This document shows, one piece after another, positions 8,230 through 22,189 of a stretch of 48,813 nt of DNA. The notes under the pieces were generated by a model. That model was not told the DNA's origin and did no database searches. It saw only the letters and a list, made by a program, of their open reading frames with translations. Source of the DNA: a virus. Numbering within the stretch: the first letter of the stretch is position 1; every line of letters begins with the position of its first letter. The translations under genes and the position numbers were made by a program. The stretch spans positions 1-48,813 of IMG/VR virus record IMGVR_UViG_3300037847_001519; one strand, written 5' to 3'.

Positions 8230-9091
8230 AATAATTACAATGCCAACCACACCTAACTTCACTAGAAGTAGTTTTCGTTTGGTTAGAACAATAGGTACAA
8301 CAGTATCACCTTTTACTGGTCAAACTAAAACTCAAGAATTTGATGGTGTTTATTGGGTAGCTGAAGTTACCTTACCACCCATGAAAAGAGCAGTTGCTAA
8401 AAATTGGCAATCATTTTTGTTGGAACTTAAAGGGACAACAAACCATTTTAAGTTTGCTGACCCTGATGCACTTACAAATACAGGAACATACAGTACAAAC
8501 TATTTAGAAGGTGATAAACGTGTAAACAATACAAGTGTTACGTTATCTTTTAGTGGTAGCACCATAACAGCAGGTGCATCAACTTTTAGTAGTGCTAGAG
8601 CAGGTGATTTTATACACGTCACAGGTGCAACTAATGATGCAAACAATGGTACACACAAGATAACTTCAGTGACTTCTGCAACCGTTGTGGTTGTAGATAG
8701 CACACTTACCACAGAATCAAGCACAGCAAGTTGTAAAGTAAGACAGAATGTCAAGGGTGCTACAGGATTATCGCTTCTCGCTTCGTCTAACGGTGCTAGT
8801 GGCACGATAAAGCAAGGAGACTACTTAGGGGTCATATCCAGTGCAAGCGAGTCGGGAACACCTTCACAGTATTTAATGGTTGTAGAAGATGCAACAGCTA
8901 CATCAGACTCAGGTAAAGATTTTTATTCAGTTAAGACAGAGCCAAAGCTAAGATCAGACCTAGCTGATGGTAATTATGTAATATTTAATAATCCAAAGGG
9001 ATTGTTCCGACTTGTTGATAACGAGGTGGAATGGTCAGCAGACCGAGCATCAACATACGGAATATCTTTTTCATGTATTGAGGTCATCTAA
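8222..9091 (+). CDS. distal tail / minor tail protein
   Basis: A 289-residue protein directly after the tape measure, the place of the distal tail protein. The N-terminal 75 residues (a basic start, then WVAEVTLPPMKRAVAKNWQSFLLELKG and FKFADPDAL) fit a distal-tail N-terminal barrel. Residues about 90-170 are an inserted threonine/serine-rich beta domain (GSTITAGASTF, FIHVTGATNDANNG), and the C-terminus returns to the barrel (LVDNEVEWSADRASTYGISFSC). The insertion may be a carbohydrate-binding or adhesion module. Assignment rests on position and pattern. It overlaps the tape-measure stop by eight bases. Confidence 0.65.
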   Translation: MARIITMPTTPNFTRSSFRLVRTIGTTVSPFTGQTKTQEFDGVYWVAEVTLPPMKRAVAKNWQSFLLELKGTTNHFKFADPDALTNTGTYSTNYLEGDKRVNNTSVTLSFSGSTITAGASTFSSARAGDFIHVTGATNDANNGTHKITSVTSATVVVVDSTLTTESSTASCKVRQNVKGATGLSLLASSNGASGTIKQGDYLGVISSASESGTPSQYLMVVEDATATSDSGKDFYSVKTEPKLRSDLADGNYVIFNNPKGLFRLVDNEVEWSADRASTYGISFSCIEVI

Positions 9092-9739
9092 ATGGCATCA
9101 AGAACTGGTATTGACAGTGCCATAACCAACCGACTTGGTGCAGATCATCAAGAAATATTTTTTGCAATAAAGGCAGAGTTTGACACAGACGATATCAGAG
9201 TTTGGACTGGTACAGATGATCTAACCATATCAAGTGAAACATATACAGGTGCAGGCAGTTTATTATCTATTGGTGGTATTGAGGATGGTAGAGATTTAAA
9301 AAGTTCAGGTCTTACTGTTGGAATATCAGGTATGGATTCTACTGTACTAAATTATGCACTGACAGAAAATTATCAAAATAGATTTATTACATTGTTCATG
9401 GGATATCTAATGGGTGGTTCAAATGAAGTTGCAGGAACAATAGTTTTATTTAAAGGTCGTATGACTACACTCAGTATTAATGATGATCCTAATGGCTCAA
9501 ATATAACGATTGATGCAGAAAACAGATTAATAGATTTAGATAGACCGTCAAACCTAAGATACACAAAAGAAAGTCAAGAATTTTTATTTACTGGTGATAT
9601 TGGATTAGACAGAGTAAACCAATTACAAGATAAAGAGATTGTATGGGGAAGAAGTTCTGCAAGTGGTGGTTCTACAGGTGGTGGTGGTAGTCATAATGAA
9701 ATGGGCAGAGGTCATAATTTTAGAGATCACATGAAATGA
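9092..9739 (+). CDS. tail hub-type protein (GTA gp13 / DUF2163-like)
   Basis: A 215-residue protein with features of the GTA-type hub family: an N-terminal strand set describing V-W-T-G and SSETYTGAGSLLSIGGIEDG, a central LFKGRMTTLSI, then ENRLIDLDRPSNLRYTKESQ and GDIGLDRVNQLQDKEIVWG. The R-x-x-x-x-D-x-x-R-x-x-x-R-Y-T segment and the final W-G are typical. The C-terminus is a glycine/serine/histidine-rich flexible tail. It sits between the distal tail protein and a cell-wall hydrolase-like gene, matching the GTA order gp12-gp13-gp14-gp15. Confidence 0.7.
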   Translation: MASRTGIDSAITNRLGADHQEIFFAIKAEFDTDDIRVWTGTDDLTISSETYTGAGSLLSIGGIEDGRDLKSSGLTVGISGMDSTVLNYALTENYQNRFITLFMGYLMGGSNEVAGTIVLFKGRMTTLSINDDPNGSNITIDAENRLIDLDRPSNLRYTKESQEFLFTGDIGLDRVNQLQDKEIVWGRSSASGGSTGGGGSHNEMGRGHNFRDHMK

Positions 9740-10152
9740 AGAAAAAAGAAGATTGGATTGATATATTCTTTGAGTTTGTAAGAGAAAACAAAGACAAACC
9801 TTTTGAATGGGGTAAGTGGGATTGTTGCATCTTTGCTAATGCCTGTATCAAAGCCATGACAGGACAAAACTTAATACCAAGCACACTTAAATGGAAAAAT
9901 GAAGAAACTGCAATGAAGGCTATTAAAGATTATGGCAAAACATTAAAAGGTGCAGTAACAAAAGCCTGTAAAGCAAAAAAACTACAAGAAGTAAAACCTG
10001 CATTTATAACAACAGGTGATCTTGTGGTATTTAAAGAAGAATCAGAATTAGTTGGTATATCAGACGGATTTAATATTCTTGCACCAAGTGAAGATGGTAT
10101 AGAGTTTAAGTCGCATGATCTTATAGTCAAGGGTTGGAGAATAAATGGCTAA
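9736..10152 (+). CDS. NlpC/P60-like tail protein (DUF6950-like, GTA gp14 position)
   Basis: A 138-residue protein with W-G-K-W-D-C-C-I-F-A-N at residues about 27-37, the active-site cysteine region of NlpC/P60-like peptidases, followed by a helical segment with an A-x-x-A-x-x-x-Y-G pattern. The second conserved motif is G-D-L-V-V-F-K near residue 95. A catalytic histidine is not obvious: the usual H site reads GISDGFNIL, as in the DUF6950 branch. In gene transfer agents the homologous position holds a tail-borne peptidoglycan peptidase used at entry. Whether this copy is active is uncertain. It overlaps the previous gene by four bases. Confidence 0.7.
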   Translation: MKKKEDWIDIFFEFVRENKDKPFEWGKWDCCIFANACIKAMTGQNLIPSTLKWKNEETAMKAIKDYGKTLKGAVTKACKAKKLQEVKPAFITTGDLVVFKEESELVGISDGFNILAPSEDGIEFKSHDLIVKGWRING

Positions 10153-13100
10153 AGCACTTAAAACTGCAGTTGTCGCAGCTATAGCAATTTACATACCTGC
10201 TGCAGCACTTAAATTAGGTGCACAATTTAGTGTAACCTTATTTGGTAGCACATTAACAGGTGCTACTGCTCTTGCTGTAACAACATTTGCTACTACATTG
10301 GTAAGTGCAGGTATTGGCATGCTTACTTCCAAAGGAATAGAAGCAGGAACAGCAAACTTTGGTTCTAAATTTGCATCAAGAAGTTCATCAGCACCAAGAC
10401 AAATTATCTATGGTAAAACAAGAGTTGGTGGCACCATTTTACATTTAGAAACCACAGGTACAGATAATTTTCTATTGCATATGGTTGTAGCAGTCGCAGG
10501 ACACGAAGTTGAAGCAATAGAAACTGTAAGAATTAATGACAAAGACTTAACAACAACCACAAGTACAATTAGTGGCTCTACAGTGCATACAGTTACCAAT
10601 GCTGATTTTACTAATACAGATAATGATAATAATTTTGGGTCAGGTAGATTAGTTAGATTTACAAAGGTATTAGGAACAGATACACAGTCTGTTGATGGAT
10701 TCTTAGATGCACAGTTATCAAGCATTGGTACAAACCATAGATTTAGAGGTATTGCATACGTCTACATACAAATGGTGTTTGATGCAGAAAAGTTTGGTGG
10801 TGGCTTACCTGCAGTTAGCTTTATAGTCAAAGGTAAAAAAGTTTATGACCCTAGAAACAGTACAACTGCATGGTCAGATAATCCTGCTTTGTGTATTCGT
10901 GATTACCTTATGGATACACGCTATGGCTTAAAAGCCACAAGTGCAGAGATAAACGATTCTACAAGTGCAGGTGGGTTTGCTAGTGCAGCTAATATATGTG
11001 ATCAAACAGTGACACTTGCAGACAGTTCTACAGAAACACGTTACACAGCAAATGGTTTTACTAATATGTCTGCTAATGGTGAAGGGATTATTGAAGCCTT
11101 GTTATCTTCTTGTGCAGGTAAGATGTCATACACAAACGGTAAATTTAATTTATTTGCAGGTGCAGCACAAACACCAAGCCTTACGATTACAGATGATGAT
11201 TTATTGCAACCTGTAGCAATCTCTACAAAACCACAGTCAGGTGATATGTATAACACTGTAAAAGGTATCTATGTTGATGCTAGTAGTGATTATCAAGGTA
11301 CAGAATCGCCTGTGTATCAAGATTCAACATTTCTTGCAGCAGATACACCGACAAGTGAATCAAGTGCTAATTATGTAAAAACCTTAGAGGTACAGTTCCC
11401 ATTTACCACAAGTGAAACAATGGCACAAAGACTACAAAGGATTGCACTTAATGGTAATAGACAAACAACACAAATAAATCTTCTTACTACAACTAAGTTT
11501 ATGAGGTTACAACCAAATGATTGGGTGTATGTAACCAATGATAGGCTTAGTTATAGCAATAAAGTATTTGAAGTTGTAAGCATGAATTTAGAAGTGGTTG
11601 GAGATGATGTACCAACAGTAGCTACTAGATTGGTACTCAAAGAGATTGCTTCAAGCATATTTACGTTTGCTAGTAACGCTTATGAAACAGGAGTATCAGA
11701 AGGCTCTACTGTTAGCACAGGAACATACGCTATAACTGCACCTAGTAGCTTGTCTGCAACGGTAACAACAAACAATAGCTTTACCATTAACTCTAAAAAC
11801 GTAACGCTGTCGTGGACTAATAATACAAACCAAGTTGTTAATGGTACAGAAGTACAATACAAACTTAGCAGTGATTCAACTTATATTGATGCAGGTATTG
11901 TTGGTAGAGATATAACTAAGTTTACGCTTACAGGTTTAGAAGTTGCCAAAACATACAATATTCGTATAAGACATATCAGCACCTTTAATACTTATTCTGC
12001 TTTTGCCACAGTCAACGCATCAACAGGTGGTACTGCATTTACTAACATAGAAGATGGTGCAACAGCAGGTGCAAGGGTTGGAACAAACTTAAAAGCTGTT
12101 GACGGTGTAACAAATCTTGGTGCTGTAGATGTTATAAACAGTCAACTTTCACTTGGTGTATCAGGCACAACATTGATTCTTAACAATGGTGGTGGTAATA
12201 CAACATTAGGGGAAGATAACGTAGGTTTTCCAAGTGGTAGTATTAATAAACTAGGTGGTATTGCAGCAGGTGCAGACGTTACAGCAAATAACACTGCTAA
12301 CGATACAAGCAATGTGAATGGCACAGCAGCAAGCACAGTAAAAAATAATGCTGCAGTTGGTAACACAAGTGCAACAAACTTTAATTCATTCTTGACTGAC
12401 GTAGCCAGTACATCAGGCTCAACTGCAATCGCAGGTAATAATATCAAATCAGGAAGCATAGATGGTAGCTTAATATCAGTAGATAACTTAAACCTTAAAA
12501 CACAAGGCACTTCTGCATCAGGAACATCTAAGTCATGGGGAAGTAGTGCTAGTGATGTATTTATTGCAGATATAGGTACAGCAGCAGGTTTCTATCAAGG
12601 CTTTGTAAGTCTTGATCTTACAAGTGGTAGTTCAATGGCAGGTGGTCAAATATCTGTAAGAATAAAAGAAGGTAGCACAACAAAAGCTGATTACAGGTTT
12701 CCATTCACACAAGAATTTGACGGTGGTGATGGTTTAGAAACAAGTGATCAAGGTGAGTTGCAAGTTAGTTTTGGATACTTCTATTCAGGAACATCAACTC
12801 TATCATTGTATGTTCGTGGTGATTCTAATGGGTCAAGTTCAACTGCAACTGTCAAAGCACGTGTCGTCAAGTTTGGTGCAGAACAACCAAATACTTTTAC
12901 ATTTACAGACGTGACAGGTGCAAGTACAGGTTCAACTAATACATCTAATACAGTAACGCTAAGTGGCTTTACAGGTACGCTTGTAGCACAACTATCAGGA
13001 CATTCCTCTGCTACATTTAAAGTCAATAGTGGTAGTTATACAAGTGCAGATAAGAATGTTACTTCAGGCGACACTGTAAACGTAAGGCTAACTGCTTCAG

Positions 13101-13657
13101 CAAACTCAGGAACAACAAGAAGTGCAACCTTAGTGCTAAGTGGTGTAGGTGATACCTATTCAGTAACGACCAGTGGCACATATACACCTGATAGTGGTGA
13201 TACGTTTGGTTGCTTTGCAAAAAATACACCTATATGGATGTCTGATCATTCTTTTAAAAATATACAAGATATTAAGGTAGGTGATGTTGTTAAATCATTT
13301 AACATTGCAGAAGGTATGGTAGAAAACAAAGAAGTAACAGAAGTTATGGAGATGCGTAGAGATGTTATCTATCACGTGAAGCATAACAAAGGGACATTAA
13401 GAATAACTGACGGACACCCTGTTTATGTAGATGGCAAAGGTTGGTGTGCAATAGATTCTGTAAAAGCTACAGATATACACAAAACACCATCGCAAGATTT
13501 GCTTGTAGGAGATATGCTTAAAACTGCACTAGGATCATCAGAAATCAAATCTATAGAGAAACAAGAAGAGCAAGATGTTTATAACATCAATAGAGTTGCA
13601 GACAATCATAATTTTTATGCAGGACAAGTATTAGTACATAACGTAGAATTAAAATAA
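10145..13657 (+). CDS. tail tip / host-specificity protein (J-like, GTA gp15-like) with C-terminal Hint domain
   Basis: A 1,170-residue protein. It begins with two hydrophobic segments (residues 4-55), then a J/gp15-like hub region (VGGTILHLETTGTDN, GHEVEAIETVRINDKDL, CIRDYLMDTRYGL). A fibronectin type III-like domain lies near residues 530-625 (VTLSWTNNTNQVV, YNIRIRHIST). Serine/threonine-rich beta domains follow. The last 148 residues are a Hint (intein-like) domain: Cys1023 at the N-terminal splice position, TDGH at 1088-1091 (block B T-x-x-H), and a terminal H1165-N1166. The residue after the asparagine is valine, so full protein splicing is not expected; N-terminal cleavage before Cys1023 is possible. 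It should form the tail tip that contacts the cell. Confidence 0.85.
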   Translation: MAKALKTAVVAAIAIYIPAAALKLGAQFSVTLFGSTLTGATALAVTTFATTLVSAGIGMLTSKGIEAGTANFGSKFASRSSSAPRQIIYGKTRVGGTILHLETTGTDNFLLHMVVAVAGHEVEAIETVRINDKDLTTTTSTISGSTVHTVTNADFTNTDNDNNFGSGRLVRFTKVLGTDTQSVDGFLDAQLSSIGTNHRFRGIAYVYIQMVFDAEKFGGGLPAVSFIVKGKKVYDPRNSTTAWSDNPALCIRDYLMDTRYGLKATSAEINDSTSAGGFASAANICDQTVTLADSSTETRYTANGFTNMSANGEGIIEALLSSCAGKMSYTNGKFNLFAGAAQTPSLTITDDDLLQPVAISTKPQSGDMYNTVKGIYVDASSDYQGTESPVYQDSTFLAADTPTSESSANYVKTLEVQFPFTTSETMAQRLQRIALNGNRQTTQINLLTTTKFMRLQPNDWVYVTNDRLSYSNKVFEVVSMNLEVVGDDVPTVATRLVLKEIASSIFTFASNAYETGVSEGSTVSTGTYAITAPSSLSATVTTNNSFTINSKNVTLSWTNNTNQVVNGTEVQYKLSSDSTYIDAGIVGRDITKFTLTGLEVAKTYNIRIRHISTFNTYSAFATVNASTGGTAFTNIEDGATAGARVGTNLKAVDGVTNLGAVDVINSQLSLGVSGTTLILNNGGGNTTLGEDNVGFPSGSINKLGGIAAGADVTANNTANDTSNVNGTAASTVKNNAAVGNTSATNFNSFLTDVASTSGSTAIAGNNIKSGSIDGSLISVDNLNLKTQGTSASGTSKSWGSSASDVFIADIGTAAGFYQGFVSLDLTSGSSMAGGQISVRIKEGSTTKADYRFPFTQEFDGGDGLETSDQGELQVSFGYFYSGTSTLSLYVRGDSNGSSSTATVKARVVKFGAEQPNTFTFTDVTGASTGSTNTSNTVTLSGFTGTLVAQLSGHSSATFKVNSGSYTSADKNVTSGDTVNVRLTASANSGTTRSATLVLSGVGDTYSVTTSGTYTPDSGDTFGCFAKNTPIWMSDHSFKNIQDIKVGDVVKSFNIAEGMVENKEVTEVMEMRRDVIYHVKHNKGTLRITDGHPVYVDGKGWCAIDSVKATDIHKTPSQDLLVGDMLKTALGSSEIKSIEKQEEQDVYNINRVADNHNFYAGQVLVHNVELK

Positions 13658-14013
13658 TGGCATCATACGCATACACATACACAGTTACAGATTATTACTA
13701 CACTAATCATAATGGCAAAAAAGTCATTGTTAGTATTTTTTTTGACATAGCTTGTACTAGAACAAATGACGATAGCACCACAAATAATGTAACTATTACA
13801 GGTGAGCAGATTACATATTCTGCACTTAGTGCTGAGAAAGTAATACAACAAAGATCAGATGACGATTACACGTTGACCAACAGATCAGACTTTACAGATT
13901 TTGATAGCCTAACAATACCTGATGACCTAGTAACTTGGATACAGGCCCATTATTCAGATTCAATTAATTTAGAGGGGTTGCAGCTTAGAGTTGATGCCTT
14001 GATAGATGGATAG
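13657..14013 (+). CDS. hypothetical protein following the tail tip gene
   Basis: A 118-residue protein starting on the last base of the tail-tip stop (TAATG). It opens with a tyrosine/threonine-rich strand run (YAYTYTVTDYYYTNHNGKKV), has a beta middle, and ends in helical acidic sequence. There is no signal peptide. No family is recognised. The tight coupling to the tail-tip gene suggests a tip accessory or assembly protein, but the sequence gives no direct evidence. Confidence 0.65.
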   Translation: MASYAYTYTVTDYYYTNHNGKKVIVSIFFDIACTRTNDDSTTNNVTITGEQITYSALSAEKVIQQRSDDDYTLTNRSDFTDFDSLTIPDDLVTWIQAHYSDSINLEGLQLRVDALIDG

Positions 14014-14356
14014 CTTTATACAAATAATTAATGAGGTTGGCTTTCCAATAGCAACAGCACTAGGTCTTGGTTTCTTCATATGGAAACTAATCAACAGAAT
14101 TATTGATGGCATGGAACAAAAGCTAGATACCTTAGATGACAAACAAGCCGAACTAATATCTAATATGGAAGAAAGGTTAGGGACAAAGTTAGATTCACAA
14201 CATGGCATACTGGTCGCCTTGATAGATAGAGTACGTAGCCTAGACAATGAGATTATTAGACAAGACACGCTTATTAAAACAATACTAGGTGTACCACAGC
14301 TTATAGATAGTTCAAAGATTGCTAAAGCAGATAGAGATGATCAAAGGAAGGATTAG
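14006..14356 (+). CDS. membrane-anchored coiled-coil protein, holin-like
   Basis: A 116-residue protein with one membrane span at about residues 12-31 (GFPIATALGLGFFIWKLI), followed by about 70 residues of heptad-patterned coiled coil (MEQKLDTLDDKQAELISNMEERLG) and a charged end. Phage proteins of this layout, with one N-terminal span and a long helix, occur among holin-like or accessory lysis proteins. It is the first gene of the lysis/curli block and overlaps the previous gene by eight bases. The holin role is inferred from position and topology. Confidence 0.6.
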   Translation: MDSFIQIINEVGFPIATALGLGFFIWKLINRIIDGMEQKLDTLDDKQAELISNMEERLGTKLDSQHGILVALIDRVRSLDNEIIRQDTLIKTILGVPQLIDSSKIAKADRDDQRKD

Positions 14357-14823
14357 TGGATTCCTTTACTAGATTATTACTAGCAATAGTTACAGCATGG
14401 GCAATGATGATAGGTGTAGGTCTGTATGTCAGTGCAGACGAGATGACACACAGTTTTAAAAACCCAAGTTTTTCAGGTGTTGGCACTTCTGCACATTGGC
14501 TAACCATAGAAAATCAAGAAGCTAATAGGAAGAAAGCAATCAAAGACGAGATAAAGGCTTACCAAGAAGATTTAGAAAGGGAAGCAGAAAACACAACACT
14601 TGCTAGATTTATTCGTAATTTAGAAAGTAGAATATATGCACAACTATCAAGACAGTTAGTTGATAACCTGTTTGGTGAAACACCTAATGAATCAGGTACA
14701 TTAGAGCTAGAAGGCAATACAATAGAATATTCTGTTGACGGTGATTTCATAACTTTGATTATTACAGATGCAGATGGAAATACCACAGAGATTACTTTGC
14801 CTATCGGTGATTTTTCTTTTTAG
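14356..14823 (+). CDS. csgF: CsgF-like curli assembly factor
   Basis: A 155-residue secreted protein with a GTG start at 14356 that overlaps the previous stop. The signal peptide is about residues 1-27 (LLLAIVTAWAMMIGVG), with cleavage likely after VSA. The mature start carries T-H-S-F-K-N-P-S-F (N36-P37), matching the F-x-N-P-x-F by which Escherichia coli CsgF inserts into the CsgG pore. The helical middle (FIRNLESRIYAQLSRQLVDNLFG) and the final beta hairpins (TIEYSVDGDFITLIITDADG, TEITLPIGDF) also follow CsgF. CsgF couples the CsgG channel to curli nucleation at the cell surface. It lies directly upstream of a csgG homologue, overlapping it by 56 bases. Confidence 0.88.
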   Translation: MDSFTRLLLAIVTAWAMMIGVGLYVSADEMTHSFKNPSFSGVGTSAHWLTIENQEANRKKAIKDEIKAYQEDLEREAENTTLARFIRNLESRIYAQLSRQLVDNLFGETPNESGTLELEGNTIEYSVDGDFITLIITDADGNTTEITLPIGDFSF

Positions 14824-15604
14824 TTGCACGAACTGGTCAGTACTTAACAACTATCAATTACCTGTAAGCCTAGTTAAACAAGCAGAGGTTGGTGTACTTA
14901 TCAACAAAGAACTTGCTGATATAGGTAAACCATTCATAAAGCCAACGATTGCTGTCTATCCAAACAGCTTTACAGACCAAACAGGACAACGTAGAAGCAA
15001 TAGCACATATGCTTCATTCTCAACAGCTATTACACAAGCACCTAACGCATACCTTATACGTGCCTTAAAACATGCAGGAGAAGGACATTTTTTTGATGTC
15101 GTAGAACGTGTTGGACTTGATAACTTAACAAAAGAGAGACAACTTATAAGGTCTACACGCAAAGACTTTAAAGAGGATAAAGATTTACTACCCCTAACTT
15201 TCGCAGGTTTGTTGATGGAAGGGGGTGTGATAGGATATGAAAGCAACGTCAAATCAGGTGGTTTGGGTGCAAGGTATCTAGGGATAGGTACTACAAAAGA
15301 ATATAGACAGGATTCTGTTACTGTTTCTTTACGCACCGTGTCAGTTAGCACAGGCAAAGTCTTGACCGAAGTGCTTACCACAAAGACAATTCTTAGTGTT
15401 GCATTAAGTCAAGATGCTTTTAGGTTTATCTCTAGTGGCACAGAGTTAGTAGAGATAGAAAATGGCATGGTTGAAAATGAGTCTGTAAACATAGCCTTAC
15501 AAAGTGCAGTAGAAACTGCTGTATTGGAAACCATAAAACTAGGTGTGAAAAATAATTTATGGAGTATACCTGATGAAGAAATGCTTAATGCTATTCGTGG
15601 TTAG
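14768..15604 (+). CDS. csgG: CsgG-like outer-membrane secretion channel lipoprotein
   Basis: A 278-residue lipoprotein. The signal is MQMEIPQRLLCLSVIFLFSC, with the lipid-bearing cysteine at residue 20. The family core is very well conserved: DQTGQ and FSTAITQAPNAYLIRAL, RVGLDNLTKERQLIR, and I-G-Y-E-S-N-V-K-S-G-G-x-G-A-R-Y-x-G-I-G at 155-174, nearly identical to E. coli CsgG. TKTILS and FRFI strands follow. CsgG forms a nonameric outer-membrane pore that exports curli subunits. The constriction residues of E. coli (Y51, N55, F56) align as roughly S, S and F here, so the pore eyelet may differ. Start chosen for the signal peptide; it overlaps csgF by 56 bases. Confidence 0.93.
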   Translation: MQMEIPQRLLCLSVIFLFSCTNWSVLNNYQLPVSLVKQAEVGVLINKELADIGKPFIKPTIAVYPNSFTDQTGQRRSNSTYASFSTAITQAPNAYLIRALKHAGEGHFFDVVERVGLDNLTKERQLIRSTRKDFKEDKDLLPLTFAGLLMEGGVIGYESNVKSGGLGARYLGIGTTKEYRQDSVTVSLRTVSVSTGKVLTEVLTTKTILSVALSQDAFRFISSGTELVEIENGMVENESVNIALQSAVETAVLETIKLGVKNNLWSIPDEEMLNAIRG

Positions 15605-16274
15605 TGGATTTTTATTTGCTGATAACGAAGTTTATGTAGATCAAGTCGGTGCAACATTAAACCTTGATATAGAACAGCTTGGCTCTAACAACATTATTGG
15701 TGGTAGTGATGCTGTTGCAGGTGGTATGACTGCATTAGACCTAGATGGTACAACAATGACACTAGACGTAAATCAAATTGGTGATAGTAACAAGTTTCTT
15801 GGTGATATTACCTCTGATACTTTTACTGGTTTCTTTGAATTTGATGGCGATTCTAACGTCTTTGATATACAAGTTGACCCAACCAATACCTATGGTGCTG
15901 ATAGTGGTAACTTTAATGTTGACGTAACAGGGGGTAGTAATACCTTTGAATTAAATGTGGCTACTGCTGACCTTGCAGGAACGCTTGACCTTGATTGGAT
16001 AATACAAGGTGATTCAAATGATCTTACATTCAATATTGACTATGATGGTGCAACCAATTATGTTGATATAGATGGAGATTCAAACACAATTAATTTTGAT
16101 GCAGATGGATATTCAGGTGGATATTTCTATTTGGATCAGACAGGTAATTCAAGAACATTTAACATAGATCAACAGAGTACCCTAGCCAGTGATTGGTTAC
16201 AAATTAATTCTAATGGCAACAATGGCACTATTTGTGTCAAACAAAATGATGGGGGAACAAGTACCTCGTGCTGA
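15573..16274 (+). CDS. curlin-repeat secreted protein (CsgA/CsgB-like)
   Basis: A 233-residue protein with a signal peptide (MKKCLMLFVVSGFLFA) followed by about nine curlin-like repeats. Each has the Q-x-G-x-x-N or G-D-S-N core flanked by alternating hydrophobic strands: EQLGSNN, NQIGDSN, FDGDSN, TGGSN, IQGDSN, IDGDSN, QTGNS. This is the cross-beta design of curli subunits, here with an acidic, aspartate-rich variant. It ends with a cysteine pair (TICVKQNDGGTSTSC). Encoded directly after CsgG, it is the obvious export substrate. The first 32 bases overlap the csgG end and the last 86 bases overlap the next gene. Whether it forms amyloid is inferred. Confidence 0.82.
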   Translation: MKKCLMLFVVSGFLFADNEVYVDQVGATLNLDIEQLGSNNIIGGSDAVAGGMTALDLDGTTMTLDVNQIGDSNKFLGDITSDTFTGFFEFDGDSNVFDIQVDPTNTYGADSGNFNVDVTGGSNTFELNVATADLAGTLDLDWIIQGDSNDLTFNIDYDGATNYVDIDGDSNTINFDADGYSGGYFYLDQTGNSRTFNIDQQSTLASDWLQINSNGNNGTICVKQNDGGTSTSC

Positions 16275-17298
16275 CGTAGGTAATGTATCTGAACTAAATG
16301 GTGTTGCTCGTATTGTACGAGATGAGCCAGTACAAGCATCGCTAGAAGCCAATATAAAGAGCTATGACACGTTAGAAACGTCTAATGGTCGTATGGGTAT
16401 CACTTTCCTAGATGATACACAGATAAGGCTTACAGAACACTCTCAGGTCTTGGTAGATGAATTTGTTTTTGACCCAAACCCTGATAATTCCAAGATGGCA
16501 CTTAATTTTGCCAAAGGCACTGCACGTTTTGTTACAGGCAAACTAGGGCTAGTACCTAAGAAAAACATAAAGATACGCACCAACAGTGCGACAATCGGTA
16601 TTAGGGGTACTGATTTTACAATCACAGTTAATGAAATAGGTGAATCATTAATTATCCTTTTACCTAACCTTGATGGCACAAGCAGTGGTGAAATAGAAGT
16701 AACTACAGCTATGGGTACAGTTTTGTTAAACAAGCCTTATGAATCTACAGTTACCACAGTCTTTGAAGCACCCCCAAGTAATCCTGTCATCTTAGATTTA
16801 ACCCTAGACATCATAGACAATATGCTTATTGTCAATCCACCTGAACGTGTAAGGGAAACCATAGAAGAAACCACGTCATCATCAAGCAATGTCTTAGATG
16901 TAGATTTTTTAGAGTTTGATGAATTGGATGCAGACTACTTTGCTAAAGATGAACTAGAGTTTACCGAACTAGATATTAACTATCTTGATGTTAATTTCTT
17001 TGAAGATTTGCTAAAGGTGATAGACGAATTAGACAAGTTAGCTGAAGATGATTTAGAGCAAGAACAGCAGATTACAAGGATTGTAGGTACAAAAGTCGGT
17101 CAAGACCCAACAACACAGATCATTACATTAGTACAAGGTGAAGTTATTAGCTTACGCAGAAAAGTTGAACAATCGGTACAAGTTGATTTAAACTCTAGTC
17201 AGGGATACACAGTTATCTTTATACAAGACGGTGTATCAAATACAATTAAGATTAATGGTGGTGGCGACTCAGTAATAAAAATTACACAAGGCTCATGA
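16189..17298 (+). CDS. secreted FecR-domain protein with C-terminal curlin-like repeat
   Basis: A 369-residue protein with an N-terminal signal (YKLILMATMALFVSNKMMG). Residues about 30-175 form a FecR domain: a GVARIVRDEPVQ strand, SYDTLETSNGRMGITFLDDTQIRL, FAKGTARFVTGK, then IRTNSATIGIRGTDFTI. Next is an acidic helical stretch (residues about 235-290) and, at the end, a single curlin-like repeat, Q346-x-G-x-x-N351, followed by beta strands (TIKINGGGDSVIKIT). FecR-type domains occur in cell-surface proteins as well as in signalling. With CsgG, CsgF and curlin neighbours, it may be a nucleator or anchor for the curlin-like fibre. That is inference. Its first 86 bases overlap the curlin gene. 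Confidence 0.8.
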   Translation: MIGYKLILMATMALFVSNKMMGEQVPRADVGNVSELNGVARIVRDEPVQASLEANIKSYDTLETSNGRMGITFLDDTQIRLTEHSQVLVDEFVFDPNPDNSKMALNFAKGTARFVTGKLGLVPKKNIKIRTNSATIGIRGTDFTITVNEIGESLIILLPNLDGTSSGEIEVTTAMGTVLLNKPYESTVTTVFEAPPSNPVILDLTLDIIDNMLIVNPPERVRETIEETTSSSSNVLDVDFLEFDELDADYFAKDELEFTELDINYLDVNFFEDLLKVIDELDKLAEDDLEQEQQITRIVGTKVGQDPTTQIITLVQGEVISLRRKVEQSVQVDLNSSQGYTVIFIQDGVSNTIKINGGGDSVIKITQGS

Positions 17299-17675
17299 AA
17301 ATAAACTTCATAATTATAGGTATATGTGCAACTGTTTTAGGTGGCAGTTTGCTATATATCAAATGGCTTCAAGCAGAAAATGAAACCCTAAGAGCAAACC
17401 AAGCAAAGCTAGAACAATCAATAGCAGACCAAAACGAGAGTATAAAAAATTATCTTGCAAATCAAAAACGTCAGACAGAGCAGATAACATTACTTGAAAC
17501 CCAACGCCAAGAAGCACAGAGAGAACTAAGTAAACTAAGAGATACATTTGCCAAACATGATATAGGAAAGTTGGCATTAGCAAAACCAAAGCTAATAGAA
17601 AACATAGTCAATAAAGGCACAAAAAAAGTTAAAGACGACATGATAGAACTTACTAAACCTGAACAATATGATTAG
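17295..17675 (+). CDS. i-spanin-like (Rz-like) membrane protein
   Basis: A 126-residue protein with an uncleaved N-terminal membrane anchor (INFIIIGICATVLGGSLLYI) and a long coiled coil rich in E, Q, K and R (residues about 25-85), ending in a charged basic tail. This is the topology of inner-membrane spanins. It overlaps the FecR-domain gene by four bases and the next lipoprotein gene by eight, matching the common Rz/Rz1 pair arrangement. Spanin pairs fuse inner and outer membranes in the last step of lysis. Confidence 0.72.
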   Translation: MKINFIIIGICATVLGGSLLYIKWLQAENETLRANQAKLEQSIADQNESIKNYLANQKRQTEQITLLETQRQEAQRELSKLRDTFAKHDIGKLALAKPKLIENIVNKGTKKVKDDMIELTKPEQYD

Positions 17676-18048
17676 ATATCTACCAATTTTATTTCTTACC
17701 TTGACAGGTTGCTCCCTACTTACAAGCCAAACTAAACCTGTTGAGGTAAGAACTATTGCTGAACCTGCACCTATGTTTCACCCACCCATGCCATTGGAAT
17801 TGCAACTCAAAGATATTGAATGGACAATTCTTACTCCTCAAACAATGGGCGATTTATTGGATGATATAGAGGGGGGTTCAGCAGTACCTACTGCATACTA
17901 TGCTTTAACATCACAAGGCTATCAAAACCTTTCAGAAAACACTGCAGAAAATAAAAGATACATCAGAGATGTCATTGCAGTAGTCAAATATTATCGGTCT
18001 TTAGACGATAAAGAAGAGCCAAAAGAAACTAGACAAGAAGAAAACTAG
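17668..18048 (+). CDS. o-spanin-like lipoprotein
   Basis: A 126-residue lipoprotein with signal MIRYLPILFLTLTGC and a canonical lipobox (LTGC, cysteine 15). A proline-rich stretch follows (AEPAPMFHPPMPLEL), as in many o-spanins. The second half contains TAYYALTSQGYQNLSENTAEN and a helix ending VVKYYRS, a conserved pattern in marine phage lysis regions. It follows the i-spanin-like gene with an eight-base overlap. Together they would span the periplasm. The lipoprotein character itself indicates a Gram-negative host. Confidence 0.72.
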   Translation: MIRYLPILFLTLTGCSLLTSQTKPVEVRTIAEPAPMFHPPMPLELQLKDIEWTILTPQTMGDLLDDIEGGSAVPTAYYALTSQGYQNLSENTAENKRYIRDVIAVVKYYRSLDDKEEPKETRQEEN

Positions 18049-18062
18049 ACGATACTATCGGT

Positions 18063-18088
18063 AATAACTTTTATCTATAGGAGTTATT
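18063..18088 (+). promoter_or_regulatory. hairpin presenting the ribosome-binding site of the next gene
   Basis: AATAAC at 18063-18068 can pair with GTTATT at 18083-18088, placing the Shine-Dalgarno TAGGAG (18078-18083) in the loop and at the stem edge, just before the ATG at 18090. A second short palindrome, CGATACTATCG, lies at 18050-18060. Such a structure could modulate the timing of a lysis gene. The stem is short and AT-rich, so its stability is uncertain. Confidence 0.4.
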
Positions 18089-18089
18089 T

Positions 18090-18260
18090 ATGGATATGAT
18101 AATCAATTTAGTAAGCATGATTACTGTAATAGTAACTGTTGCTTCTATCATTGCTGCTGTTACTCCAACACCTAAAGACGATGAATGGATTGGTAAGTTA
18201 TATAAACTTGTTGATCTTGCAGCGTGTAATTGGGGTTTTGCAAAGGACAAAAGCAAATAA
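18090..18260 (+). CDS. small membrane protein, possible holin
   Basis: A 56-residue protein with one hydrophobic span (residues 4-24, IINLVSMITVIVTVASIIAAV), then P-T-P-K-D-D-E and a helix (WIGKLYKLVDLAACNWGFAKD). Small proteins with a membrane helix, a TPTPKDD turn and a C-terminal helix recur in marine phages near lysis genes. Here it sits between the spanin-like pair and the nuclease and lysozyme genes, so a holin role is plausible. The start is set by a strong TAGGAG seven bases upstream. Confidence 0.6.
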   Translation: MDMIINLVSMITVIVTVASIIAAVTPTPKDDEWIGKLYKLVDLAACNWGFAKDKSK

Positions 18261-18284
18261 GATTAGTGCATTAGCACACTTACT

Positions 18285-18665
18285 ATGACTGACTCAGTAA
18301 TTCCATTTGTATACGAAGCCGAACTAGACAGGGTTGTTGATGGCGATACCATTGATGTAATACTTGATCTTGGTTTTAATGTTAAGTTGCATAAACAAAG
18401 ATGCAGATTAGCAGGTATAGATACTCCTGAATCTCGTACAAGAGATTTAGAAGAGAAGAAACTAGGCTTGGCAGCCAAAGCAAGACTGCAGGAGTTATGT
18501 CATGGTAAATTCAAAATACAATCGCTAGGTAAAGGAAAGTATGGCAGAATATTAGCAATACCTTTCACAGAAGATGGTCAAAATATTTGCGAAATACTTA
18601 AAAAAGAAGGTCACGCAGTTGAATATTGGGGTGGCAAGAAAACCAAAATATGGGGGGGATACTAA
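18285..18665 (+). CDS. thermonuclease-like (SNase fold) nuclease
   Basis: A 126-residue protein with the staphylococcal-nuclease fold: V-V-D-G-D-T-I-D-V (D19, D21), C-R-L-A-G-I-D-T-P-E (R41, D46, E49) and K-Y-G-R (R88). These match the calcium ligands and catalytic Arg35, Glu43 and Arg87 of the family with correct spacing. It has no signal peptide, so it would act in the cytoplasm, perhaps in degrading host DNA or RNA, unless it is released on lysis. It lies between a possible holin and the lysozyme gene. Confidence 0.88.
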   Translation: MTDSVIPFVYEAELDRVVDGDTIDVILDLGFNVKLHKQRCRLAGIDTPESRTRDLEEKKLGLAAKARLQELCHGKFKIQSLGKGKYGRILAIPFTEDGQNICEILKKEGHAVEYWGGKKTKIWGGY

Positions 18666-18666
18666 T

Positions 18667-19110
18667 ATGGTTATATCAGACGAAGGTGTTGCCTTAGTAA
18701 AAAAGTTTGAAGGGTGTAAATTAGAAGCCTATAAATGTGCTGCAGGTGTTTGGACTATTGGTTATGGTTCTACCAAAGGTGTGCAGAAAGGTGATGTATG
18801 GTCGCAAACAAAAGCAGAAATGATGCTTGAAGAAGAACTGTACGACTTTGCACAACAAGTAGATGAATTGGTAACTGTTCCACTAAATCAATGTCAAGCT
18901 GATGCACTTATCTCTTGGACATTTAATTTAGGTGCAACTAACTTATCTAAGAGTACATTGCTAAAAGTCCTTAATAGTGGCTCGTATGACGATGTACCTG
19001 CGCAGATTAAAAGATGGAATAAGGCTAATGGTAAGGTACTAGAAGGACTCGTTAGACGACGAGAGGCAGAAGCGTTGCTTTTTGAAGGCAAGGAATGGGA
19101 ACACGTCTAA
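18667..19110 (+). CDS. endolysin, phage-type lysozyme (GH24)
   Basis: A 147-residue muramidase of the T4/lambdoid lysozyme family. The catalytic triad is visible with exact family spacing: E15 (FEG), C24 (in place of the aspartate) and T30 (WTIGYG), the E-C-T version seen in many phage endolysins. Later motifs are PLNQCQADALISWTFNLG, LLKVLN and GLVRRREAEALLF. It has no signal sequence, so it needs a holin or other pore to reach the wall. I chose the ATG at 18667; the frame extends upstream to an ATG at 18574, but that part overlaps the nuclease and is not lysozyme-like. Confidence 0.9.
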   Translation: MVISDEGVALVKKFEGCKLEAYKCAAGVWTIGYGSTKGVQKGDVWSQTKAEMMLEEELYDFAQQVDELVTVPLNQCQADALISWTFNLGATNLSKSTLLKVLNSGSYDDVPAQIKRWNKANGKVLEGLVRRREAEALLFEGKEWEHV

Positions 19111-19337
19111 TGGCATTGTCCAAAACACAGAACAAAAGGCTAGGTGGCATTTTAACAGTTATGTTCAAAGAAGAACTGCCACAGGACGTAGAACAACAAT
19201 TAGTACAAGAGGGGTTTGTAGAAAAAAATGATTCTGATATTCAACTCACAGATAAAGGAATTGATGAAAAAAACCGACTCTGTACTCTTGCAGGACTTAA
19301 TATCAAATATTCTAGCGAAAGAAAAAAAGAGGACTGA
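19110..19337 (+). CDS. small hypothetical protein after the lysozyme
   Basis: A 75-residue protein starting on the last base of the lysozyme stop (TAATG). The sequence (LSKTQNKRLGGILTVMFKEELPQDVEQQLVQEGFV, then QLTDKGIDEKNRL) looks like a small winged-helix-like fold of the 'L-T-D-K-G' type, where a strand pair follows two helices. It has no membrane segment. Function unknown. It overlaps the next small gene by one base (TGATG), so the three genes form a coupled set. Confidence 0.65.
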   Translation: MALSKTQNKRLGGILTVMFKEELPQDVEQQLVQEGFVEKNDSDIQLTDKGIDEKNRLCTLAGLNIKYSSERKKED

Positions 19338-19495
19338 TGTACCTAATGTCGCAATGTCAAAACTGCGAGAAGAAGAAATTAGATTGTACATGCGCAGGAA
19401 GCAAAGGTCTGTTTTGGGAAGAAACAACCAAGAAGTTTTACACTTGGATAGAATTAAGAGAATTTTATAAAAAAAAGGCTAAGAATAAATCCTAG
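19337..19495 (+). CDS. small zinc-ribbon-like protein
   Basis: A 52-residue protein coupled to its upstream neighbour by a TGATG overlap. It contains C7-x2-C10 and C17-x-C19 within a lysine-rich segment, which could bind one zinc ion, and then an aromatic/charged helix (FWEETTKKFYTWIELREFY). Its end runs into the terminator hairpin. I prefer this frame to the alternative frame covering 19264-19470 because of the stop-start coupling and the ordered cysteines. Function unknown; it is the last gene of the rightward late transcript. Confidence 0.62.
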   Translation: MYLMSQCQNCEKKKLDCTCAGSKGLFWEETTKKFYTWIELREFYKKKAKNKS

Positions 19496-19500
19496 CCTTT
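19474..19500 (-). terminator. bidirectional terminator between late and early blocks
   Basis: AAAGGCTA at 19474-19481 pairs with TAGCCTTT at 19493-19500. Read on the minus strand, the stem is followed by a run of T residues (the AT-rich stretch 19466-19476 on plus), a good rho-independent terminator for the leftward genes. On the plus strand the stem lies at the end of the last late gene and could also stop rightward transcription. A smaller stem AGGTGA/TCACCT follows at 19502-19517. Confidence 0.75.
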
Positions 19501-19531
19501 AAGGTGATAAATCACCTGCCCAAGTATGAAG

Positions 19532-19723
19532 CTACAGTATATCAGTTTTTACTTTCTTTGTTTCTTTTCTACCTGATAAATATACGACTTGTGTAAACTC
19601 AATACGTTTACCATTTTCTAACCTAGATTCGTAATAATGGTATTCAACCATCTTATCTAGTTCTTCGTCAGTTAATTGTTGCTTTCTTATTTCAAGCATT
19701 GATCTTGTATATGGATATGCCAT
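19532..19723 (-). CDS. small hypothetical protein
   Basis: A 63-residue basic protein (MAYPYTRSMLEIRKQQLTDEELDKMVEYHYYESR, then RIEFTQVVYLSGRKETKK), one helical half and one beta half. It is the last gene of the leftward early block, just before the terminator. An upstream in-frame ATG at 19744 would add seven residues; I chose 19723 because an AAGGCGG ribosome-binding-like sequence lies 9-15 bases upstream. No family recognised. Confidence 0.55.
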   Translation of the reverse strand: MAYPYTRSMLEIRKQQLTDEELDKMVEYHYYESRLENGKRIEFTQVVYLSGRKETKKVKTDIL

Positions 19724-19765
19724 TTTATAATACCGCCTTATCATTTTTTTTACTCACGTTATACA

Positions 19766-19909
19766 TTATTTACCCCACTTACATTTAATAATATCTTCTT
19801 TAATATTATGGTGTGTTTCTCTCCAAGAATTAGCCATGACTACAAATATACCTGCAATATTTGCAAGTAAAAATATTCCTAGCACAATAAAAATAATATT
19901 AATAATCAT
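19766..19909 (-). CDS. small membrane protein
   Basis: A 47-residue protein whose first half is a strong hydrophobic helix (IINIIFIVLGIFLLANIAGIFVV), followed by a short charged cytoplasmic or periplasmic tail ending CKWGK. Its ATG overlaps the end of the upstream gene by 11 bases, in the compact style of this block. Single-span micro-proteins like this are common in phage early regions, where they may act on host membrane proteins. That role is speculation. Confidence 0.55.
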   Translation of the reverse strand: MIINIIFIVLGIFLLANIAGIFVVMANSWRETHHNIKEDIIKCKWGK

Positions 19910-20198
19910 GATATTTTTGTTCTTCTAATTGAGAGAGATCACCTTCAGATAAAATATCCTCATCTTTATTGTCCTTATAACTTTGCAAAGCATCATCAAG
20001 AATTGGCTTGACAGATTGATAAGCCTTTTGTTTATCATCTGCAATACTACCTGAACAATGCATAGCGGCATAACTAAAAACTTTCCTTAATTTATTACAC
20101 AATACCATTCTCAAGTATTTATCTTGTTCATCAAGCATTTCTTCATCAATTTCAGATAATACTTGTTGTGTTAGTTTTACCAAATTTTCTTTATTCAT
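19899..20198 (-). CDS. hypothetical helical protein
   Basis: A 99-residue protein from the ATG at 20198 (MNKENLVKLTQQVLSEIDEEMLDEQDKYL). It is largely helical and acidic, with a cysteine-containing middle (VFSYAAMHCSGSIADDKQ) and an acidic end. The frame is open for 21 more codons upstream, but that part overlaps another gene. It starts inside the last codons of the upstream gene (eight-base overlap). No family recognised. Confidence 0.6.
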   Translation of the reverse strand: MNKENLVKLTQQVLSEIDEEMLDEQDKYLRMVLCNKLRKVFSYAAMHCSGSIADDKQKAYQSVKPILDDALQSYKDNKDEDILSEGDLSQLEEQKYHDY

Positions 20199-20355
20199 CT
20201 TTTGTAATATCAATGTCTTTGTATAGAATTTTGCTTTTAAAGTTATGCTCATCAATAGCATCTTTAACCAAGCTAATTAACTCATCATATTCAGGATAAT
20301 GGTCAATATCAACTTTGATTTTAACCTCTAATTCCATGTCAGCTGTTCTTATCAT
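20191..20355 (-). CDS. small hypothetical protein
   Basis: A 54-residue protein with a good ribosome-binding site (GGAGATATAAG then ATG). The sequence (MELEVKIKVDIDHYPEYDELISLVKDAI) is a strand followed by a helix and ends with a second strand (FKSKILYKDIDI), a small alpha/beta unit. It overlaps both neighbours by a few bases, which supports it as a real member of this operon. Function unknown. Confidence 0.6.
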   Translation of the reverse strand: MIRTADMELEVKIKVDIDHYPEYDELISLVKDAIDEHNFKSKILYKDIDITKDE

Positions 20356-20564
20356 CTTATATCTCCTACTATTTTTTTAATTTCAAAGTCATACCACTGC
20401 ATGACTTCATATTTACACTTATCCCAATCTGCAGAAAATAACTCTGATATTTTTTGTACTGCATCTTGGTAACCATATTCATCAACAAACTCAACAAAAT
20501 TATGTTTTATGCAACTCAATGTTAGTTGGCTAATGACCTCTGTAGATTTTATACCTTTATTCAT
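20352..20564 (-). CDS. small hypothetical protein
   Basis: A 70-residue helical protein (TEVISQLTLSCIKHNFVEFVDEYGYQDAVQKISELF, then WDKCKYEVMQWYDFEIKKIV) behind an AAGGAAA ribosome-binding site. The repeated aromatic/acidic helix pattern resembles many uncharacterised phage early proteins. The stop overlaps the next start by four bases. No family recognised. Confidence 0.6.
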   Translation of the reverse strand: MNKGIKSTEVISQLTLSCIKHNFVEFVDEYGYQDAVQKISELFSADWDKCKYEVMQWYDFEIKKIVGDIR

Positions 20565-20719
20565 CTTTTTATTTCCTTGTAATGTGATGTTATGTTGTTA
20601 TCTAAATAACACTCAACTCTGTTTTGGGCATCTAATAAATTATCAAATGTTCTTACAAGTTTGTGTTCCCCATACCTACCGATATGAGGAAACCAAACAT
20701 ACACTTCATACTGAATCAT
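20561..20719 (-). CDS. small hypothetical protein
   Basis: A 52-residue protein (MIQYEVYVWFPHIGRYGEHKLVRTFDNLLDAQNRVE). A beta hairpin is followed by a helix (FDNLLDAQNRVECYLDNN), a layout reminiscent of small phage proteins with a strand and a 'D-A-x-x-R' helix. The stop overlaps the next start (ATGA) and its own start overlaps the previous stop, so it is embedded in the operon. Function unknown. Confidence 0.58.
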   Translation of the reverse strand: MIQYEVYVWFPHIGRYGEHKLVRTFDNLLDAQNRVECYLDNNITSHYKEIKR

Positions 20720-21072
20720 GATAGAGGTATGAACTCCATATATGGTTCTTCAATATGATCTATTGGCATCCATTCAAGATGTTCTTCAATATCTTCAATG
20801 GTCTTAGGGCAATCAATTATATTACCTTCACCATCATTAGCAGATACTAAACATATGCCTGCATAAACTGCACCTAATTTAAAGTATCTTTGCTCAGTAG
20901 TTAATAAACCTTCATCATCTACAATTAGATCAACATTATTTCCAAGAGAAACAATATCTATTAATCTGCAATTCATGGTTTCACGAATCTCTGTAAGATC
21001 AGAAGTATTAACATCTATCTCATCAACAGTTTGTGTGAAAGGGTCTATCTTTATCATTCTTTTTAGTTTCAT
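20716..21072 (-). CDS. DUF3846-like protein
   Basis: A 118-residue protein from the ATG at 21072, set by an AGGAAATATT ribosome-binding site. The start (M-I-K-I-D-P-F, then VDEIDVNTSDLTEIRETMN), the central strand (NNVDLIVDDEGLLTTEQRYFKLG) and the late AGICLVSANDGEGN match the general pattern of DUF3846 proteins found in phages and plasmids, in which strand-loop-strand precedes an N-x-x-A/G region. The role of that family is unknown. The gene starts just beyond the terminator at 21089-21113. Confidence 0.55.
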   Translation of the reverse strand: MKLKRMIKIDPFTQTVDEIDVNTSDLTEIRETMNCRLIDIVSLGNNVDLIVDDEGLLTTEQRYFKLGAVYAGICLVSANDGEGNIIDCPKTIEDIEEHLEWMPIDHIEEPYMEFIPLS

Positions 21073-21088
21073 AATATTTCCTATAAAA

Positions 21089-21114
21089 AAAAGGCAGCTG
21101 TTATGCTGCCTTTT
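21089..21114 (-). terminator. rho-independent terminator embedded in a gene end
   Basis: AAAGGCAGC at 21090-21098 and GCTGCCTTT at 21105-21113 form a 9-bp stem with a six-base loop. On the minus strand it is followed by a T-rich stretch (the A-run at 21085-21091 on plus). The 5' arm is made of the last codons (K-A-A) of the ArdC-like gene and the loop contains its stop codon, so the terminator is part of the coding sequence. Confidence 0.82.
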
Positions 21115-21382
21115 GGTTAACTCTTTCAAGAATAGGTTTGACGTCAAATACATTAAAGTATTTTTTGACTTTAACCTTCTCACCAGTAGCTTTATCTTCT
21201 TCTTCTTTAAAGAAAAACAAAGTTGCACAAGCCTTTAGACCTTTAAGAGTCTTACCTGATACACCTTGGATTTTTAAAGCTTGTTTGAAAGTAACAAAGC
21301 TATCGTCCTCGTTGAAGCCTGCTTCTGACAGAATGTCAACGTTGGCTCCTGAGTAGTTATTTTGAGTTATATAATTTTTCAT
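21101..21382 (-). CDS. ArdC-N-like single-stranded DNA-binding domain protein
   Basis: A 93-residue protein from the ATG at 21382 (GGAGATAAC upstream). The pattern Y-x-G-x-N-V-D-I-L, then F-V-T-F-K-Q-A-L, a G-K-x-x-K-G-x-K-A stretch and an F-N-V-F-D-V end resembles the N-terminal ssDNA-binding domain of ArdC antirestriction proteins. The zinc-peptidase half of ArdC is missing, so this is a stand-alone domain. It is the first gene downstream of a strong leftward promoter and is followed by its own terminator, suggesting early and abundant expression. An antirestriction role is inferred. Confidence 0.62.
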   Translation of the reverse strand: MKNYITQNNYSGANVDILSEAGFNEDDSFVTFKQALKIQGVSGKTLKGLKACATLFFFKEEEDKATGEKVKVKKYFNVFDVKPILERVNQKAA

Positions 21383-21411
21383 GTTATCTCCTTTTATCAA
21401 ATTATGTATAC

Positions 21412-21440
21412 ATCTTAATTCCATTTTGGAATAAAGTAAA
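21412..21440 (-). promoter_or_regulatory. leftward promoter with operator in its spacer
   Basis: On the minus strand, TTTACT (21435-21440) and TAAGAT (21412-21417) are spaced 17 bp apart, and the ATG lies 30 bp from the -10. The spacer contains the perfect inverted repeat ATTCC-ATTTT-GGAAT (21418-21432 on plus). The same element recurs at 24156, 29111, 31003 and 36920, which suggests a common regulator. Confidence 0.7.
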
Positions 21441-21469
21441 CACTTTTTTAAGTTTTTTTTTATTTTTTT

Positions 21470-21805
21470 TTAAAAGGGTAAATCGTCTATTTTTGGATCA
21501 TCTTGTGTTCTTTGCCACAATCTCTTTGCTTCTGTCTGTCCATAGTCTGCAGGTAATCCATAATGTTTAAAGAAAGCAGATTCACTTCCATATTTTGTAT
21601 GCAGTAAAGAATGATGACGAAAACAAAGTGGTATTACATTATCATCGCCTGCACGCAACGACATACCTCTTTTACCATTCCATGGCTTTAATAAATGATG
21701 TGCTTGTATATTATTTGACCCAACGTAATAACCTGCCCTACAAATTAAGCAGGGCAGACTAGCTACGTATTCCAAATGTTGGCGATTGGTAAGTCTTTTA
21801 GACAT
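21470..21805 (-). CDS. HNH endonuclease-like protein
   Basis: A 111-residue protein with a zinc/HNH core: C19-x2-C22, A-H-H at 35-37, R-G-x-x-L-R, then N-V-I-P-L-C61-x-x-H-H and H69. This matches the small HNH proteins (DUF968-like) found in phage recombination blocks. It ends DDLPF, an acidic tip resembling the C-terminal tail of single-stranded DNA-binding proteins. The neighbours are a putative ssDNA-binding protein, an annealing protein and an exonuclease, so a recombination nuclease role is likely. Confidence 0.78.
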   Translation of the reverse strand: MSKRLTNRQHLEYVASLPCLICRAGYYVGSNNIQAHHLLKPWNGKRGMSLRAGDDNVIPLCFRHHSLLHTKYGSESAFFKHYGLPADYGQTEAKRLWQRTQDDPKIDDLPF

Positions 21806-21820
21806 ACACAGATTATAGAA

Positions 21821-22189
21821 TTAAAAAGGTATTTTTGCCCCTATAGCATTATTGTCCTTTTCTTCTTCTATCTCTTGAAAGCCAAGACTTGTATATGGTG
21901 TACCTTGCTCGCTTTCTCTTGCCCAACAACCTAATTTATATGTTTGGCAATCTTGTGTAATCTTACCCCCCATATCAGGTGATCTCTCACTTTTCTTTTG
22001 CTGTGGGTCATTTAGATGTAAAAGACCTACACATTCAAAAAATTCGTATTTATCTTCACCTTTATTGTTTTGGCTTTTTAAAATACCACCGTATCTTTTT
22101 TTACCATTGATGGTATAGGTACCTTTTCTTAAAACTTGTGCATTAGTTTCATGCCATAGATACCCTTTCTTTTCATTATCATTATCCAT
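21821..22189 (-). CDS. putative single-stranded DNA-binding-like protein
   Basis: A 122-residue protein. The beta-rich N-terminal half (TYTINGKKRYGGILKSQNN, KYEFFECVGLLHLND) and a later G-C-W-A-R-E-S-E-Q-G-x-x-Y-x-S-L-G-F strand resemble small OB-like or DUF736-like proteins. The C-terminus is acidic and ends with IGAKIPF, similar to the last residues of bacterial SSB tails (a D-x-x-I-P-F tip). It lies in the recombination block. The SSB-like role is plausible, but I cannot see a clear OB-fold signature. Confidence 0.5.
   Translation of the reverse strand: MDNDNEKKGYLWHETNAQVLRKGTYTINGKKRYGGILKSQNNKGEDKYEFFECVGLLHLNDPQQKKSERSPDMGGKITQDCQTYKLGCWARESEQGTPYTSLGFQEIEEEKDNNAIGAKIPF

Follow-up and report, generated by a model that had tools for sequence, protein, structure and literature searches.

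The locus examined here raises the question of why a phage would carry genes of a curli-type secretion system in its lysis region, and whether these genes export a fibre or open a pore. The window, by which we mean the whole stretch of DNA analysed (IMG/VR record IMGVR_UViG_3300037847_001519, 48,813 nt), begins with 98 bases that repeat at 48714; the record thus probably represents a genome of 48.8 kb that is near-complete and was assembled as a circle. Its head and tail genes (TerL, portal, prohead protease, HK97 major capsid protein, major tail protein, tape measure and gpJ) identify the carrier as an HK97-type siphophage, and the host is probably a marine bacterium. Every phage record is less than 60% identical to the window terminase, and megablast of window DNA 10000-22000 against the phage collection returned no matches.

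Other features of this genome deserve mention. The gpJ-like tail-tip protein (10145-13657) has a C-terminal Hint/intein-type autoprocessing domain at residues ~1019-1166 (Vint 1.7e-6, Hint 7.7e-6) and ends in ...VLVHNVELK; such a domain on a central tail fibre looks unusual. A TET-associated glycosyltransferase (24989-25882; PF20691, 2.7e-38) has a ParB-like gene and a sugar epimerase as neighbours, a possible DNA or surface modification set. At 41192-48805 lies a gene for a 2537 aa repetitive fibre protein with an S74 chaperone domain at its C-terminus, and the final ~98 nt of this gene are those repeated at the window start.

The genes of interest lie on the + strand. A sequence-only reading of this DNA had placed four consecutive genes at 14356-17298, and we find them there: a CsgF-like pore partner (14356-14823), a CsgG outer-membrane lipoprotein pore (14768-15604, with the start at 14768 or 14774), a curlin-like fibre subunit (15573-16274) and a secreted FecR-domain protein (16189-17298). 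The flanking genes are also as described in that reading. Upstream is the gene we call TMcc (14006-14356; phrog_18771/phrog_9829), whose 116 aa product has one N-terminal transmembrane segment and a coiled coil and which belongs to the conserved module as its first gene. Downstream, outside the module and on the same strand, are an i-spanin (Rz-like; 17295-17675; phrog_739, E = 3e-15) and an o-spanin lipoprotein (17668-18048; phrog_812, E = 4e-12), followed by a nuclease and then an endolysin (phage lysozyme; 18574-19110; PF00959, E = 4e-48). From gpJ (10145) through the o-spanin (18048) the genes abut or overlap throughout, and we found no +-strand terminator-like site in 9500-20500, an arrangement consistent with one late operon. 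Promoter-like sites are no more frequent than expected by chance.

Pfam searches, which the sequence-only reading had proposed for CsgG, CsgF and the curlin repeat, gave matches for CsgF (PF10614, E = 3.8e-19), CsgG (PF03783, E = 1.9e-49) and the FecR domain (PF04773, E = 8.4e-11), each above the Pfam curated cut-offs. The same proteins match PHROGs (CsgF, phrog_35372, 5e-45; CsgG, 2e-63; FecR-domain protein, phrog_37870, 9e-72), in all cases unknown-function families, so kin of these proteins are already in phage databases. The CsgG core, said to be almost unchanged from enteric bacteria, is in fact identical (IGYESNVKSGG) to that of E. coli CsgG in the alignment to solved structures (3x2r, 4uv3, 6l7a and 6si7; profile E = 2e-63), and the cysteine of its lipobox, LFS-C, is invariant across 21 sequences. 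In CsgF, a signal peptide is followed by the insertion motif DEMTHSFKNPSFSG; the F-x-N-P-x-F pattern claimed for it occurs as F-K-N-P-S-F in the window copy and as F-x-[NS]-P-[AS]-F in relatives. CsgF had no match among PDB chains. Two features of type VIII (curli) secretion are present: a CsgG pore whose core and lipobox cysteine are conserved, and a CsgF with N-terminal F-x-N-P-x-F. The CsgE gate (PF10627) gave no match in the window in a search that detected the E. coli control; CsgE is not essential in E. coli (PMC7029224) and is absent from pelagiphage modules too (PMC9599517).

The curlin-like protein, 233 aa with a signal peptide, degenerate repeats and two conserved C-terminal cysteines, required a less direct route. 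The window copy alone has no Pfam match at E<1, and in this respect the earlier assignment of a curlin-repeat gene is weaker for the window protein itself. Its relatives support the assignment: Curlin_rpt (PF07012) matches 10 of 20 close orthologues (best 2.5e-4), and a phage curlin profile, which included one second-type curlin, recovers the curlins of bacterial csg operons with E down to 3e-10. The AlphaFold model is all-strand and solenoid-like (pLDDT 81), and of the four viral proteins that match it best in fold, three bear the name 'Curlin associated' (E 1e-4 to 1e-3). Foldseek against the PDB found no solved curlin-like structure, and a PDB sequence search returned antibody noise only. 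The identity of this protein is thus weaker for the window copy alone than via orthologues, fold and profile cross-matches. The gene is under constraint, with dN/dS of 0.05-0.11.

The FecR domain is the sole Pfam match of the last protein, which has an N-terminal signal-like segment, an acidic linker and a curlin-like C-terminal hairpin. The N-terminal cytoplasmic domain and transmembrane segment of FecR anti-sigma regulators are absent from it, and a search for sigma-70 region 2 (Sigma70_r2) across the window found none. The published label 'iron regulator FecR' is therefore a misfit for this secreted-type protein. Its signal-like segment is coded at 16189-16274, where 86 nt are shared, in a different frame, with the part of the curlin gene that codes for the C-terminus; this overlap is retained in many window-type phages and not in HTVC008M. 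The last 30 residues carry a conserved, curlin-repeat-like Q-x-G...Q pattern. A looser test, with a motif picked after looking, was significant: 115 distinct C-termini contained 120 occurrences, where shuffled sequences gave a mean of 17, and the density of the motif there is about nine times that of the remaining sequence. A position-weight test for the curlin repeat against shuffles was not significant, profile alignment of the C-terminus with second curlins was weak (36%) and the structure model is poor (pLDDT 46). Since significance was not reached in the stricter tests, we only suggest that the protein is a FecR-curlin chimera acting as nucleator or cap.

TMcc has been named differently before. 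The gene or genes before csgF in pelagiphages were labelled histidine kinase (PMC9599517), and in HTVC008M the two genes at this position are TMcc homologues of 93-94 aa; from position, copy number and size, we infer that the published kinase is TMcc. The label does not fit a 116 aa protein that lacks HisKA and HATPase_c, and Pfam found no kinase domain in the TMcc proteins tested. As a holin, TMcc has weak PHROG matches only (E 0.016-0.035).

How constant is this gene set? We collected viral loci with window CsgG, TMcc and HTVC008M CsgG as seeds, 80 with each. Among loci with long enough flanks, counted without dereplication, TMcc and CsgF are found before the csg genes or interspersed with them in 51/51 window-type and 69/69 myo/podo-type cases (120/120 CsgG-seeded), and curlin and FecR adjoin csgG in 68/68 and 44/44 (112/112). 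The absence of these two genes beside csgG in all relatives, which the sequence-only reading had named as grounds for rejection, was thus not seen, and no CsgG-seeded viral locus with enough flank has csgG without curlin. A CHASE2-adenylate cyclase (Pfam: CHASE2 3e-25, cyclase 2e-20) follows FecR in 33/43 window-type and 20/21 myo/podo-type loci and is absent from the window and several relatives. All five module genes are under strong purifying selection in the window lineage: dN/dS is 0.02-0.15, with many dS values near saturation, and 0.02-0.10 in a close pair (L003) that is 94-99% identical.

Some individual records call for separate comment. In an HTVC008M-type subgroup (L219-L232), TMcc lies between csgF and csgG with spanins immediately upstream, so there is lysis proximity there too. 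On a contig of a Maricaulis MAG (L161, NZMJ01000004.1) there is a module of 87% identity, along with TMcc, tm160 and lysozyme; we reject this as host evidence, since the contig probably comes from a phage and was binned with the MAG. A 1.5 kb record labelled 'Salmonella phage' was set aside, as it resembles a csg fragment from a bacterium.

A maximum-likelihood tree built from 67 CsgG proteins sets the 42 that come from phages on one side of a starred branch (100/98), where they split into a window-type group (97/89) and a myo/podo group (100/96); the 'sipho' label in this tree denotes similarity to the window, confirmed from tail genes only for contigs that include them, and a few branches are long. 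Window-type CsgG is thus a well-supported sister clade of the myo/podo type, carried by HK97-type siphophages. On the bacterial side, CsgF is present in 34 of 299 genomes of one alphaproteobacterial order, and CsgF-CsgG occurs in 22 alphaproteobacterial loci with curlins mostly next. Phage profiles for TMcc, the FecR protein and the CHASE2-cyclase found none of them in these curli loci (0/22), which makes the three phage-associated additions relative to that order.

The set itself had been thought little described, and this does not hold: it is already published for pelagiphages as HK-CsgF-CsgG-CsgA/B-FecR-(CsgA/B)-AC (PMC9599517), CsgGF has been reported (PMC7029224, PMC9004378), and two surveys note in passing csgG in phages from seawater or csgGF in temperate viruses from sediment. 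The five-gene set was previously known from pelagimyophages, Melnitz and HTVC023P-type podophages. What is new here is the siphophage CsgG sister clade, the lysis-locus site, the module-less lysis contigs described below and the absence of TMcc, FecR and cyclase from the 22 alphaproteobacterial operons; neither the siphophage clade nor the lysis-locus site was found in the literature searched.

Comparison with these systems shows what is shared and what differs. The pelagiphage modules (HTVC023P-type podophages and pelagimyophage HTVC008M) have the same CsgF-CsgG-curlin-FecR order with a short gene before it, at 36% identity for FecR and 50% for CsgG. However, their carriers are myo- or podophages of SAR11, whereas the window module belongs to a siphophage, sits in a lysis locus, falls in the separate sister CsgG clade, and has a single TMcc of 116 aa where the pelagiphages have two short ones, and it lacks both a second curlin and an adenylate cyclase. 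The Methylophilales phage Melnitz (PMC9004378) has two TMcc genes, then CsgF, CsgG (43% identical), curlin and FecR in this order, but it is a myophage with a second curlin and a cyclase, and no lysis gene was found beside its module. Although csgA/B were stated to be missing from Melnitz (PMC9004378), its record (L083, MZ577097.1) annotates two 'curlin associated repeat' proteins at 8611-9636. Caulobacterales-type alphaproteobacterial operons share CsgF-CsgG followed by curlins, but have none of the additional phage partners, and their CsgG lies outside the phage clade. E. coli curli (csgBAC/csgDEFG) shares the CsgG core and the CsgF insertion motif; unlike it, the window has extra TMcc and FecR partners, degenerate curlin repeats, no CsgE found and no CsgC or CsgD seen.

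The placement of the module could point to a role in lysis itself. As proposed for Melnitz, the CsgG/CsgF pore might be repurposed as a gated outer-membrane pore or a pinholin that times lysis, and several observations fit: 42/43 window-type modules have a lysis-type gene (endolysin, spanin or holin-like) no more than 9 kb away, TMcc and spanins or a holin-like gene flank the module, and the CsgE gate was not found. Of the myo/podo-type modules, however, only 4/21 are near such a gene. Five contigs (L084-L086, L088 and L097) have TMcc-tm160-endolysin, with SNase before or between where seen, and zero csg genes; four of them (L085, L086, L088 and L097) keep the order SNase-TMcc-holin-like-endolysin. 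No CsgG was found anywhere in these module-less records, one of which is 58 kb long. Module-less L086 and L025, which has module and cyclase, are 87% identical in tm160 and 74% in TMcc. A holin or pinholin should turn up in all lysis cassettes of the same type, and the module does not. The module thus looks like cargo inserted after TMcc and ahead of the further lysis genes, in a lysis locus that also occurs on its own. In addition, CsgG crosses the outer membrane, not the inner, and the pore always comes with curlin and FecR, with purifying selection on both. The lysis-region placement given by the sequence-only reading is confirmed, but its option of a pore for lysis is weakened by the module-less loci, the myophage placement and the universal curlin, and we regard that option as improbable.

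We instead favour a phage type VIII (curli) system that secretes a curlin-like surface fibre late in infection and rides as cargo in the late/lysis operon, to which we assign a probability of roughly 65%. None of the loci examined has the pore without curlin, and curlin evolves under constraint; the set is therefore better explained by fibre export than by a pore alone. Purifying selection acts on fibre and pore genes alike, as expected if both matter. Beyond the observed gene identities, order, conservation, purifying selection, phage-clade phylogeny and module-less contigs, we infer the export, fibre formation, timing and benefit of the module. Late in infection, CsgG would insert as an outer-membrane lipoprotein pore and CsgF would plug into it; the curlin-like protein would then leave through CsgG and assemble into a fibre on the surface of the infected cell. 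The FecR-domain protein is unlikely to regulate iron and probably serves as a secreted partner, be it nucleator, cap or anchor, and TMcc may be an inner-membrane partner. The late-operon position argues for action around lysis, when the fibre would most likely act at the cell surface to aggregate cells or to tether neighbours and progeny. Counting against fibre export are the degenerate curlin repeats, the lack of a Pfam match for the window curlin itself and the lack of a solved curlin-like match in Foldseek; against aggregation, no clumping was seen in cultured Melnitz-infected cells (PMC9004378).

The same gene set would also suit a surface coat that chiefly shields the infected cell, blocking superinfection or offering a decoy surface, as proposed in PMC9599517. 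The late-operon position suggests expression when exclusion matters least, however, and we consider shielding as the chief purpose rather unlikely. Import of nutrients or cofactors through the pore, under control of FecR and adenylate cyclase (PMC7029224, PMC9599517), draws on the cyclase that follows FecR in many relatives. Yet the window and several relatives have no cyclase there, the FecR protein lacks regulator architecture in a window with no sigma-70 region 2 found, and import has no need of a curlin; import thus seems very improbable. Returning to fibre export, we offer as a speculative extension that the module is a phage-specific curli derivative common to three tail types, in which TMcc and a secreted FecR-curlin chimera replace CsgE/CsgB and whose siphophage lysis-operon site might yield, at burst, an amyloid net holding progeny and neighbouring hosts.

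Taken together, these observations extend phage-encoded curli secretion to HK97-type siphophages and separate lysis pore from fibre export, two ideas that have been mixed in the literature. The module-less lysis loci and the strict five-gene core make the choice between them testable. If the fibre is real, free-living bacteria would acquire a surface amyloid just before lysis, and this would affect aggregation, encounter rates and gene exchange.
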